Assembly: GCA_023300105.1 (NCBI GenBank)
Contig: JALZWM010000145.1
Location: forward strand, 1-32,518
From: Hellea sp.
Lineage (GTDB): Bacteria > Pseudomonadota > Alphaproteobacteria > Caulobacterales > Maricaulaceae
Direction: 5' to 3'
DNA: 32,518 nt
In this document: positions 17,519 to 21,742 of the stretch, piece by piece
Position numbering within the stretch: the first letter of the stretch is position 1
Layout: each line of letters begins with the position of its first letter
Position numbers and translations under genes: made by a program
The notes under the pieces: model-generated
Seen by the model: only the letters and a program-made list of their open reading frames with translations
Database searches by the model: none
What the model was told of the DNA's origin: nothing

Positions 17519-18106
17519 ATGATTGAAAAATTGAAAATCGAGATTAAAAATTGTACAGTCTGCACGCGCTCAGACACCCCCTTGCCTGTTACCCCAAACC
17601 CAGTTCTAAGCGGACATACGAAGGCCCGCATCCGTATTATCGGGCAAGCCCCTGGAACTTTAGCCCATGCTAGCGGCCGCCCCTTTACAGATCCGTCGGG
17701 CGTAAGACTGCGCGATTGGCTCGGAGTCACTGAAACCGAATTCTATAATGAAAACCTAATTGCCGTGACACCCATGGGATTTTGTTTTCCAGGGCAAGAT
17801 TCTAAAGGCGGCGACCTCCCGCCCCGCACAGAGTGCGCCCCGCTCTGGCAAGCTAGGCTTACGGCGGCCCTCCCCAACGTTGAACTCACGCTCTTAGTCG
17901 GTATGTACGCCGTCAAACATGTGTTAGAAGAGCGTGCGAAAAGGAACCTTACCGAAACCGTACGCCATTGGCGAGATTACGGACCAAACATCATGCCAAT
18001 CCCTCACCCCAGCTGGCGTAATAATGGCTGGATAAAGCGCCACGATTTCTTTGCTGAAGAGTTAATCCAATTAAAACTACGCGTGCGTGAGATAATTGAG
18101 CGTTAA
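17519..18106 (+). CDS. uracil-DNA glycosylase family protein
   Basis: RIIGQAPGTLAHASGRPFTDPSGVRLRDWLG and IPHPSWRNNGW motifs typical of the UDG-like superfamily; NCTVC near the N terminus. Confidence 0.8.
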   Translation: MIEKLKIEIKNCTVCTRSDTPLPVTPNPVLSGHTKARIRIIGQAPGTLAHASGRPFTDPSGVRLRDWLGVTETEFYNENLIAVTPMGFCFPGQDSKGGDLPPRTECAPLWQARLTAALPNVELTLLVGMYAVKHVLEERAKRNLTETVRHWRDYGPNIMPIPHPSWRNNGWIKRHDFFAEELIQLKLRVREIIER

Positions 18107-18117
18107 AGAGTAACGCA

Positions 18118-18462
18118 TTAGGGTCGATTCACGCCAGAATTGACACCTGCTCGCAAAAGTTCGGCACCAATTTTTCCTGTCAGAAAACAATAAAGCATTT
18201 TAAAATCAGCCGCGAGAGACCAGAGCGGATAAGTAAATGTCGCGGGCTTATTGCGCTCAATCATGCCGTGGCTGCCCCATGCAAAAACGTACCCGCAGAG
18301 AAAAGTAAGCGGGAGGAACATCCACTTTTGAGAGATAATCACAGTCAACAGGGTTAATATCGCCAGACTTGTCCCAACATAATGCCAAGCCCGCGTCGCT
18401 GGCAGGCGATGCTCTTGAAGGTAATAAGGCCAAAATTCAGCAAAGGTCGTGTGTTCGCGCAT
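18118..18462 (-). CDS. DUF962 / Mpo1-like membrane protein
   Basis: FAEFWPYYLQEHRLPATRAWHYVGT...GYVFAWGSHGMIERNKPATFTYPLWSLAADFKM; AAAGGAG ribosome-binding site. Confidence 0.85.
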   Translation of the reverse strand: MREHTTFAEFWPYYLQEHRLPATRAWHYVGTSLAILTLLTVIISQKWMFLPLTFLCGYVFAWGSHGMIERNKPATFTYPLWSLAADFKMLYCFLTGKIGAELLRAGVNSGVNRP

Positions 18463-18526
18463 GATTTACTCCTTTTTTTGGCTTTTATCAGCAAAACTGA
18501 ATCAAACCTCAAATTAAATTTTAATA

Positions 18527-18542
18527 TTAACCTTTAATTAAC
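18527..18542. promoter_or_regulatory. CtrA-type box TTAACCTTTAATTAAC
   Basis: Exact TTAA-N7-TTAA(C) spacing in the intergenic region between DUF962 (-) and the candidate sRNA (+); two further TTAA tetramers at 18514 and 18521. Confidence 0.55.
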
Positions 18543-18559
18543 CTTGTTCGTTAATACAG

Positions 18560-18629
18560 ATTAAGTCTTCTCTAGAAGACACACCATTCACCTAATACCT
18601 TCGGGAGCTCTTGAGCTCCCTTTTTTTTT
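18560..18629 (+). ncRNA. Candidate small RNA (orphan terminator plus upstream stem-loop)
   Basis: No + strand ORF in the interval; 5' stem-loop GTCTTC-TCTA-GAAGAC (18565-18580), unpaired ACACCATTCACCTAATACCTTC linker, then intrinsic terminator with T9. The 5' end is approximate. Confidence 0.5.
18603..18629 (+). terminator. Strong Rho-independent terminator, + strand
   Basis: GGGAGCTC-TT-GAGCTCCC perfect stem (C(UU)G-capped) followed by TTTTTTTTT; no T-run in the - orientation. Confidence 0.9.
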
Positions 18630-18654
18630 GGACAAAACACAATCAATTATTCAG

Positions 18655-20037
18655 TTAGAGTAATATCAGCGCCGAGAATCCAAGGAACGCAAAGAAACCA
18701 ATAATATCCGTAACTGTTGTCACGAAGACCGAAGACGCAACTGCAGGGTCCGCTCCAAAACGCTTTAAGCTCAAGGGTACTAAAATACCTGCAAAGCCCG
18801 CAAAGATATGATTTATGAGCATCGCGATAAATGCGACCAATGCTAGCTTTGGATCCTTAAACCACACATAAGTGATAGCCGCTAAGGTTAGTGCGAATAT
18901 CAGGCCTATAATAAGCGCAGCAACCCCCTCGCGGCGAATAGCTCGCCAAGCTGTTTGGTTTGTAAGATCACGCTCAGTCAAATTTCTAACGGCCACCGCT
19001 AAGGCTTGTGTGCCCGCATTGCCTCCCATAGAGGCTACGATAGGCATAAGCACCGCTAAAGAGACAATCTGGGAAATAGCGAAATCAAATTGCGCGATGA
19101 CAAGCGACGCTAAGATGGCTGTCAGCAAATTTACAAAGAGCCAAGGCGCGCGCGCTTTTACTGTTGTCAAAGCTGTATCCGTCAATCCCGCTTCGGAGAC
19201 GCCAGCCATGGCTAGCATATCTTCTTTGTTTTCGTCTTGGATAATTTCGATAATATCATCCACCGTCATCATCCCCACTAACCGGCCTGCGTCATCAATA
19301 ACAGGGGCTGAAATAAGGTTATATTTCTCAAACAAATAAGCGGCTTCTTCCTGATCCATGTTTTGAGGAATGGAGACCAATTTTTCACCCGAAATATCAG
19401 AAAGTTTAACCTCTCTTTGTTGCCTAATAAGCTGTGAAACAGGCACATAGCCAATGGGTTTAAACCCAGCATCCACGATATAGATGTTAAAAAATAGCTC
19501 AGGTAAATTCTCCCCCGTGTCGCGCATATGATCAATTGTATCGCCTACGCTCCAAAAAGAAGGTGCGGCCACAAATTCACGCTGCATGAGACGGCCAATC
19601 GTCTCATTATCAAATCTTAGTGAGGCCTCAAGCGCCGCGCGGTCATCAGGTTCCAAAGCTTGCAGAACTTGAACACGCTGTCCCGCTTCCATCTCTTCAA
19701 AAATCTGAGTAGCATCATCATTATCAATATCGGTAATCGCTTCCACGATTTGGTTCGATGGCAATAGTGGAAGAATGTCTTCAACGATTTCATCTTCCAG
19801 TTCAACGAGAACGTCACCTGAAATCAATTCAGGCATGTCTTCAATTAAACTTTCACGTTGCTCCGTGGTTAATTGTTCAAATTGATCAGAGAAATCGGCA
19901 GGATGTAACTTGAGCAAATCTGATAAGTTGGGCGTATCTAGGAGTTTTTTAACAATCAAGTTGTCATCGGTTTCGAGTTCAACCCCAGTTTCAGCTTTAG
20001 TTTTGGGCGGTGTTGTGATTTTGGCACTGTCCATCAC
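18655..20037 (-). CDS. mgtE: magnesium transporter MgtE
   Basis: MgtE N domain, CBS pair (SAPVIDDAGRLVGMMTVDDIIEII), TM region with MPIVASMGGNAGTQALAVAVRNL. Confidence 0.95.
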   Translation of the reverse strand: MMDSAKITTPPKTKAETGVELETDDNLIVKKLLDTPNLSDLLKLHPADFSDQFEQLTTEQRESLIEDMPELISGDVLVELEDEIVEDILPLLPSNQIVEAITDIDNDDATQIFEEMEAGQRVQVLQALEPDDRAALEASLRFDNETIGRLMQREFVAAPSFWSVGDTIDHMRDTGENLPELFFNIYIVDAGFKPIGYVPVSQLIRQQREVKLSDISGEKLVSIPQNMDQEEAAYLFEKYNLISAPVIDDAGRLVGMMTVDDIIEIIQDENKEDMLAMAGVSEAGLTDTALTTVKARAPWLFVNLLTAILASLVIAQFDFAISQIVSLAVLMPIVASMGGNAGTQALAVAVRNLTERDLTNQTAWRAIRREGVAALIIGLIFALTLAAITYVWFKDPKLALVAFIAMLINHIFAGFAGILVPLSLKRFGADPAVASSVFVTTVTDIIGFFAFLGFSALILL

Positions 20038-20077
20038 CCGCTCCTATAATATCTGGTTTGAAAAACTTAAGCTTCTT

Positions 20078-20584
20078 ATGACGGGAAGTCTTGCGAATGA
20101 GAAGAGGAAAGGCTTAAGTTTATCTGTGAATGCATTTGAAACATATCTTTTATTTGGTGGCGTCTTATCGACGACCCTTATCTGTCTAGCATGGACCGAC
20201 ATTAAAACCTTTCGCCTCCCTGATAAGCTTACTCTTCCCCTCATAGGTCTTGGTATTTTGCAAGCTTATTTAGTTGCGGACATTCGCGCGAGTCTCATAG
20301 GCGCGTTCATAGGCTATGTCTCATTTGTTTCAATCGAACACGCCTTCAAGGCCTTGCGCGGGAAAGACGGTTTGGGCCGCGGTGATGCTAAGCTCTTAGC
20401 TGCAGGCGGCGCGTGGTGCGGCTGGAGCGGATTGCCGTTGATTGTCTTGATCGGTAGTGGCGCCGGGCTACTGTTAGCCCTCTTGCCTAAATACAAAGAT
20501 ATGGGGCGTATTCCATTTGGTCCTTGCCTCGCTTTTGGAATTTTTATGGTTTGGACAGCTAGCGCCTATGTCGCCATCAGCTAA
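20078..20584 (+). CDS. A24 family prepilin peptidase, short form (no N-methylase domain)
   Basis: DIKTFRLPDKLTLPL and GLGRGDAKLLAAGGAWCGW aspartyl motifs. Start set after the mgtE start; exact start uncertain (ATG 20078 or a later GTG). Confidence 0.85.
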   Translation: MTGSLANEKRKGLSLSVNAFETYLLFGGVLSTTLICLAWTDIKTFRLPDKLTLPLIGLGILQAYLVADIRASLIGAFIGYVSFVSIEHAFKALRGKDGLGRGDAKLLAAGGAWCGWSGLPLIVLIGSGAGLLLALLPKYKDMGRIPFGPCLAFGIFMVWTASAYVAIS

Positions 20585-21034: not shown

Positions 21035-21742
21035 TTAGCGCCATTTACCTTGCTCTGTCAGCTTGAATTCACTGTTCTTTTTTTCAAAGCCATAAAGCGG
21101 TAAAACAAGGCCAGCTTCGGGCTGTGTGGTACGCACGGATATATCAGCGCGATAAGCGCCATTTGGAGCAATCCGCAAATCAGCCTTTATTGTTTGCCCA
21201 TTTTCTGTTCCAGAAAGCCTCGCAAAGAGATCACCGTTCTCACAACTGAGAGGTCCTGATATAACGGGGCCTTGCCATTGCCACCTCGCTTTATTTAGCG
21301 ATAGAAAATTTGTGTTGGCCTGTCCGTTAGCCGACACACAATTCTTGTCAAATTTCATGTTCTCTATTTGAATATTAACATCGCCGGCAAGTTCTTTAAG
21401 ACGTCCATCAGTTGTCGGTAATTTTGCTAATTGTCCTGTAAAGTTAAGTCCTAGAATTTGATTTCGAGACGCTTTACCGGATATTTGCATCGCCCCAGAA
21501 GAGGTTTGAAATGACAAAGGTAGACCGTCTGTAATAACTGACTTCGGATTAAGTTTGAATTGGGCGGCTCCAATAAAGTCCAGTCCAGAAATTTTACCGT
21601 TCCATACCGTTCCCGAGTATTGAATATTTGTTCCAAGACCGTTGGGCATGATATGCGGGGCGGCCCAAGCCAAAGGCAATTGCCTTATAAGGCCAAAACT
21701 AGCTCCACATACAAAAATTAAAACAAGAGGTATTTTTTTCAT
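21035..21742 (-). CDS. gspN: type II secretion system protein N
   Basis: PLAWAAPHIMPNGLGTNIQYSGTVWNGKISGLDF pattern typical of GspN (T2SSN) and location 3' of gspC-gspD. Confidence 0.85.
   Translation of the reverse strand: MKKIPLVLIFVCGASFGLIRQLPLAWAAPHIMPNGLGTNIQYSGTVWNGKISGLDFIGAAQFKLNPKSVITDGLPLSFQTSSGAMQISGKASRNQILGLNFTGQLAKLPTTDGRLKELAGDVNIQIENMKFDKNCVSANGQANTNFLSLNKARWQWQGPVISGPLSCENGDLFARLSGTENGQTIKADLRIAPNGAYRADISVRTTQPEAGLVLPLYGFEKKNSEFKLTEQGKWR

Follow-up and report, generated by a model that had tools for sequence, protein, structure and literature searches.

A small RNA of Hellea preceded by a CtrA-like box: a divergent relative of CC0196 with a candidate Sel1-like mRNA target

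Introduction

Does the DNA between a DUF962/Mpo1-like gene and mgtE in Hellea encode a small RNA and, if so, what might this RNA act on? The initial annotation of the window (the whole stretch of 32,518 nucleotides analysed here) had proposed at this place an unannotated, CtrA-associated and cell-cycle-regulated small RNA. To our knowledge, few sRNAs have been linked to the Caulobacterales cell cycle, CcnA being the studied case.

Results

Architecture of the predicted RNA

The sequence at 18563-18629 on the + strand corresponds, by covariance model match and by fold, to a small RNA of about 67 nt with a predicted 5' end at 18563-18565. It starts with a 5' hairpin of 6 bp (GTCTTC-TCTA-GAAGAC, 18565-18580, +), recognised from the fold and from compensatory changes. 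The hairpin is followed by an unpaired linker of about 22 nt (ACACCATTCACCTAATACCTTC, 18581-18602, +), which contains CACCT and represents the putative target-recognition region, and by an intrinsic terminator (GGGAGCT-CTTG-AGCTCCC plus T9, 18603-18629, +; stem-loop 18603-18620, T9 18621-18629) seen in sequence, fold and covariation. Upstream on the + strand we found a match to the CtrA box motif TTAA-N7-TTAA (TTAACCTTTAATTAA, 18527-18541), centred near -31 from the predicted start, and a -10-like TTAATA (18551-18556) inside a conserved GTTAATA that is well kept only in Hellea and near genera. The box, the TTAATA, the hairpin, the CACCT-containing linker and the terminator with its T9 all lie where the initial annotation had placed them. 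The absence of an ATG-initiated ORF was also confirmed, as a search of the + strand of the RNA for ATG returned none.

The predicted fold consists of hairpin, open linker and terminator (MFE -19.5 kcal/mol, z = -4.6). None of 200 shuffles folded as well, and the linker was open in 7/7 members folded. The only Hfq-type trait seen in the RNA is the terminator with its long T-tract. As a local motif count alone, terminator-like motifs were not above chance (4 seen vs 2.7 expected). The RNA stands above chance because it is conserved beyond the flanking antisense gene, occurs about once per genome, shows compensatory changes and is preceded by a position-fixed TTAA-N7-TTAA.

Conservation and covariation across the order

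A search of relatives with 281 bases showed stronger conservation in the block spanning the CtrA-like box through the terminator than in the flanking DUF962/Mpo1-like gene, and copies in other genera were recovered by exact linker searches. In the ten family copies aligned first, TTCACCTAATACCTTC of the linker is invariant, which is partly a selection effect because these copies were found by their linker, some with a sub-string of TTCACCTAATACCTTC itself. Ten copies also served to build the first covariance model; the covariance-model matches in the family and the order are not restricted to the linker of the first copies. Covariance searching placed the RNA in 47/53 good genomes of the window's family (16/19 genera), with about one strong match per genome, and a second model recovered it from 125 of the 150 genomes of the order, with weak matches in family f5. 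Some genomes from further orders of the class gave matches as well. The window copy itself, being among the training rows of the model, matched at 18563-18628 with an E-value of 2.6e-16. Second, weak matches in two genomes (G070 and G035) are plain terminators and were rejected as copies.

Among 51 aligned copies, base pairs were standard in 95% of pair cells, compared to 44-55% when the pairs were slid. Both partners had changed in 7 pairs (2.4 in shuffles), a count that leans towards structure because the underlying alignment was fitted to it. Both the two-hairpin structure and the stem compensations that the initial annotation had suggested looking for in relatives are therefore present.

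A CtrA box at a fixed position

TTAA-N7-TTAA is matched in at least 7 of 8 positions in 67/68 orthologous loci, as opposed to 0.4% of control windows of the same size, and the full 8/8 motif occurs in 32 of the 68 loci and in no control window. Its position is also fixed: in 67/68 loci, its start precedes the hairpin by 38-40 nt. This spacing is that of CtrA-activated promoters. Having TTAA-N7-TTAA at its -35 region, the RNA would belong to the CtrA regulon, and we infer that CtrA binds there. The box behind the label "CtrA-associated" is thus real and conserved; we have corrected the wording, as this label and "cell-cycle-regulated" are to be understood as readings of motif conservation.

The ancestral neighbour is a tRNA-Asn gene

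Within the window, the RNA is flanked by the divergent DUF962/Mpo1-like gene (PF06127, 18118-18462, -) and the convergent mgtE (18655-20037, -), which occupies the place of the relatives' tRNA-Asn. In nearly all loci of the order, and in copies outside it, the RNA immediately precedes a tRNA-Asn(GTT) gene in the same orientation; the gene on its other side is often tRNA-Cys. The exceptions are the window genome, G009 and G033, the last of these examined with no more than 300 nt of flanking sequence; the whole window was searched for tRNA genes and none was found. Judged by this synteny, the ancestral neighbour is tRNA-Asn, and the adjacency to mgtE is peculiar to the window genome and G009. 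The location between DUF962 and mgtE initially described is thus accurate for the window but not ancestral. As a search anchor, mgtE synteny was dropped, the RNA being present at only 1/30 mgtE loci. Separately, we observed that the order tRNA-Cys, sRNA, tRNA-Asn is held far outside Caulobacterales, where it would be a good anchor to find the RNA in other orders.

Relation to CC0196 and to other known sRNAs

CC0196 (RF01519, 58 positions) of Caulobacter has the same hairpin, the CACCCCACCATCACC core, a terminator and an adjoining tRNA-Asn, while its linker 3' of CACCAT and its terminator differ from those of the Hellea RNA. The Rfam family matches Caulobacter vibrioides and, with 52.4 and 40.7 bits (gathering score 35), two Caulobacteraceae-like orthologs of family f3. 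Its strong matches in the order coincide with the coordinates given by our own model, and RF01519-positive loci are matched at the same coordinates by a model built from the window's family alone. On the other hand, the RF01519 model gave no match in 18100-18800 at E <= 5, leaving the window RNA below the gathering score of 35 bits, nor any in the window genome at E <= 0.1. The cut-off was passed in 6/60 genomes of the order, all Caulobacteraceae-like except for one f4 genome. As it was never reached in the window's family, the window RNA lies outside the bounds of RF01519. Continuous homology, the common tRNA-Asn neighbour and the CtrA box nevertheless indicate that the RNA is a divergent ortholog of CC0196, beyond the current Rfam bounds. 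It follows that "unannotated" remains apt for the Hellea branch, which scores below RF01519, but not for the Caulobacteraceae orthologs, which are RF01519.

The papers listed by a literature search for CC0196 were all unrelated. From its name and position only, we take CCNA_R0004 to be the likely C. crescentus locus of RF01519. CCNA_R0004 lies between CCNA_00197 and CCNA_00196 (PMC6237742) and has been labelled "Cell cycle regulated" (PMC5988900).

Two other known sRNAs resemble the Hellea RNA in part. CcnA (CCNA_R0094) of C. crescentus is an ncRNA under CtrA control, as proposed here for the Hellea RNA, and has a C-rich single-stranded region that acts on 5'UTRs (PMC8959179). However, it is 182 nt long and located inside the replication origin (PMC4287350), hence different in length, locus and fold, and it acts on ctrA and gcrA via a CCCC loop (PMC8959179). 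The alphaR8/mmgR/SisA-D family (RF00519), widespread in Alphaproteobacteria, shares the succession of hairpin, unpaired linker and terminator, but its linker is UUUCCUCCCU and its gene adjoins FGase (PMC12559287), whereas the Hellea linker is CACCAUUCACCUAAUACCUUC. The window copy reached 14.4 bits against RF00519 (gathering score 41) and has no UUUCCUCCCU linker, and relatives in the order carry RF00519 at loci separate from the RNA. Identity with alphaR8/mmgR or with ncS16 was therefore rejected, based on Rfam scores under the cut-off and a different linker.

The linker is complementary to the leader of a Sel1-like gene

When Hellea genomes were searched with the 21-nt linker (up to 3 mismatches), the only matches besides the RNA itself were antisense and lay in two 5'UTRs, those of the genes here called A and B; the gene A site thus emerged without a prior target hypothesis. 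The gene A product, of about 96 aa, matches Sel1 (PF08238) weakly, under the cut-off, and nothing above cut-off in NCBIfam. The gene is present in 55/59 genomes of the family and 147/150 of the order and is unlinked to the RNA, lying in the window genome on another contig (G000 contig C111). There, UUCACCUAAUACCUUCGGGAGCUCUUG of the RNA (18587-18613, +) is complementary to the gene A 5'UTR at -41..-15 in 26/27 positions, with one G-U. This pairing scores 59.5. In another 1.27 Mb of fetched sequence, with the loci of gene A, gene B and the sRNA excluded, no site scored above 34.

The complementarity is maintained across genera. In 43 genomes, native linker-UTR pairs scored 38.9 on average vs 20.8 with shuffled UTRs, and the native pairing exceeded all 40 of its own shuffles in 32/43. 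When linkers and UTRs were swapped between genera, class I linkers scored 42.2 with UTRs of their own class and 27.1 with those of class III; for class III linkers the scores were 34.1 with class III UTRs and 25.5 with class I UTRs. The duplexes reach about 30 nt. Outer genera whose linker reads CACCCAATGCCTTTTCGG carry gene A sites such as CCGAAAAGGCATGGCGTGCATGGTGGG; the site of the outer genera is located at -60..-90. Complementarity was also found in some f2 genomes (G083, G115, G153). A conserved unpaired seed that is complementary to, and co-varies with, an unlinked mRNA is thus present. Together with the conserved box, the RNA's own terminator, the covarying hairpins and the conserved linker, it bears out the initial proposal of a trans-acting sRNA of about 65-70 nt.

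A few bases separate the end of the Hellea duplex from the Shine-Dalgarno sequence that follows it. The CACCT that had been noted as anti-Shine-Dalgarno-like is indeed in the linker, but it belongs to a pairing with a specific site ending just upstream of the Shine-Dalgarno, and we reject a generic anti-Shine-Dalgarno action alone for Hellea. A bipartite pairing, in which the 5' arm of the sRNA would also bind the Shine-Dalgarno in the outer genera, was suggestive in single genomes (G029) but weak overall (native 19.1 vs swapped 17.5) and was not retained.

Gene A pairing is missing in three genera of the family (g4, g12, g16) and was not detected in the sampled f3, f4 and f5 genomes; in the Caulobacteraceae-like f3, where no site was found, the Sel1-like mRNA was rejected as a target. 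Gene A is therefore not the order-wide function of the RNA. Since the pairing went undetected in most sampled genomes outside two families, other targets must exist, and the retention of the ACCCCACCAU core where no such pairing is seen likewise implies further ones.

Within Hellea, the RNA and gene A are both present in 6 genomes and both absent in 4 (G001, G002, G005 and G007), G001 and G002 also being devoid of gene B. This pattern looks like co-loss but may reflect general reduction, because the four genomes are small (1.4-2.0 Mb) and partly incomplete.

In 13/13 examined genomes whose linkers are of class I/II, gene A is itself preceded by a CtrA-like box of the TTAACC-TTAT type (7/8) at -119..-147; elsewhere the box is weaker. 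In the window genome (L086, on C111) TTAACCTTATATTTA lies at -128 and GTAAAACTTGATTAA 27 bases upstream of it, a CtrA-like tandem that is conserved in class I/II genomes.

Discussion

Our analysis finds a CtrA box kept at one position before one RNA across a whole order, and extends an orphan Rfam entry of Caulobacter far beyond Caulobacter. What is new here, on sequence grounds, is the complementarity between the linker and the 5'UTR of a Sel1-like mRNA, and the co-variation of linker and target gives a CC0196-type RNA its first specific candidate target.

We consider it highly probable that the RNA is a CtrA-activated, trans-acting base-pairing sRNA, the Hellea ortholog of CC0196, which acts on the Sel1-like mRNA and probably represses it. 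As the position-fixed box suggests, phosphorylated CtrA would bind TTAA-N7-TTAA over the -35 region and switch on a transcript of about 67 nt ending at its own terminator. This transcript is predicted, with support from covariation, to fold into hairpin, open linker and terminator. The linker, extending into the 5' arm of the terminator, would then pair with the 5'UTR of the mRNA encoding the ~96-aa protein, as the extended complementarity, the co-variation between genera and the apparent co-loss suggest. In Hellea, the duplex would most likely block ribosome loading and thereby lower translation while CtrA is active.

We favour repression in Hellea because its duplex precedes the Shine-Dalgarno by only a few bases. 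For the outer genera, where the site at -60..-90 falls outside the usual initiation zone, a simple block of the ribosome is not a fitting explanation. The same RNA could instead act on the same mRNA by activating its translation or stabilising it: the outer-genera site, 60-90 nt upstream, is placed as in activating pairings, and part of the gene A site is folded in the free UTR of several genomes. However, folding of the gene A duplexes showed the Shine-Dalgarno to be neither consistently released nor consistently masked; its predicted accessibility does not consistently rise on binding, and the Hellea duplex abuts it. We therefore regard activation as unlikely, albeit the strongest competitor of repression.

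As pairing is symmetric, the 5'UTR of the Sel1-like mRNA might conversely act on the RNA as a sponge. A precedent is known in Caulobacter, where CrfA is an RNA sponge of the SisA-D sRNAs (PMC12559287). Such a role appears improbable to us, as the site is part of a conserved coding gene's leader and no result here favours a sponge.

Because nearly every locus has tRNA-Asn downstream of the RNA and in the same orientation, the RNA could also be a by-product conserved for the sake of tRNA expression, serving the tRNA-Asn transcription unit as leader or attenuator. We judge this very improbable, because the RNA persists intact in the window genome and in G009 with no adjoining tRNA-Asn; moreover, a terminator stands before the tRNA and the linker co-varies with an unlinked mRNA. 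Finally, the chance that the conserved element is a small protein encoded antisense to the RNA (ATGGTGGGG..., preceded by AAGG), to which the resemblance of the linker complement to a ribosome site plus ATG might point, is negligible, given a frame of 5-36 codons that has no conserved phase or C-terminus and is broken by loop-length changes, and given that covariation and T-tract are on the + strand.

Returning to the favoured reading, the CtrA-like boxes before both the RNA and gene A suggest, short of demonstration, a feed-forward loop. Tentatively, and with rather more doubt than confidence, we propose that an order-wide CtrA-driven sRNA shapes the cell-cycle timing of the Sel1-like protein in such a loop, with seed and target co-evolving as a lineage-specific pair.

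Two further observations concern gene B and the window itself. Gene B encodes a MinD-like ATPase (judged by eye) of about 230 aa, without a Pfam match, downstream of a DegP-like protease. It was rejected as a general target, because its site is restricted to G004 and G006 and absent from the window genome and other relatives. In these two genomes the 5'UTR/start region is complementary to the linker at 21/21 (G004; L063, C4) and 19/21 positions (G006; L065, C3), possibly a lineage-specific gain of a target site. Elsewhere in the window, a GspD-type secretin (PF00263, PF21305; 21824-24349, -) is adjoined by GspN (21035-21742) and a type IV prepilin peptidase (19910-20584). After a long linker, this secretin ends in a C-terminal LysM domain (PF01476, 1.1e-10) and thus carries its own peptidoglycan-binding domain.
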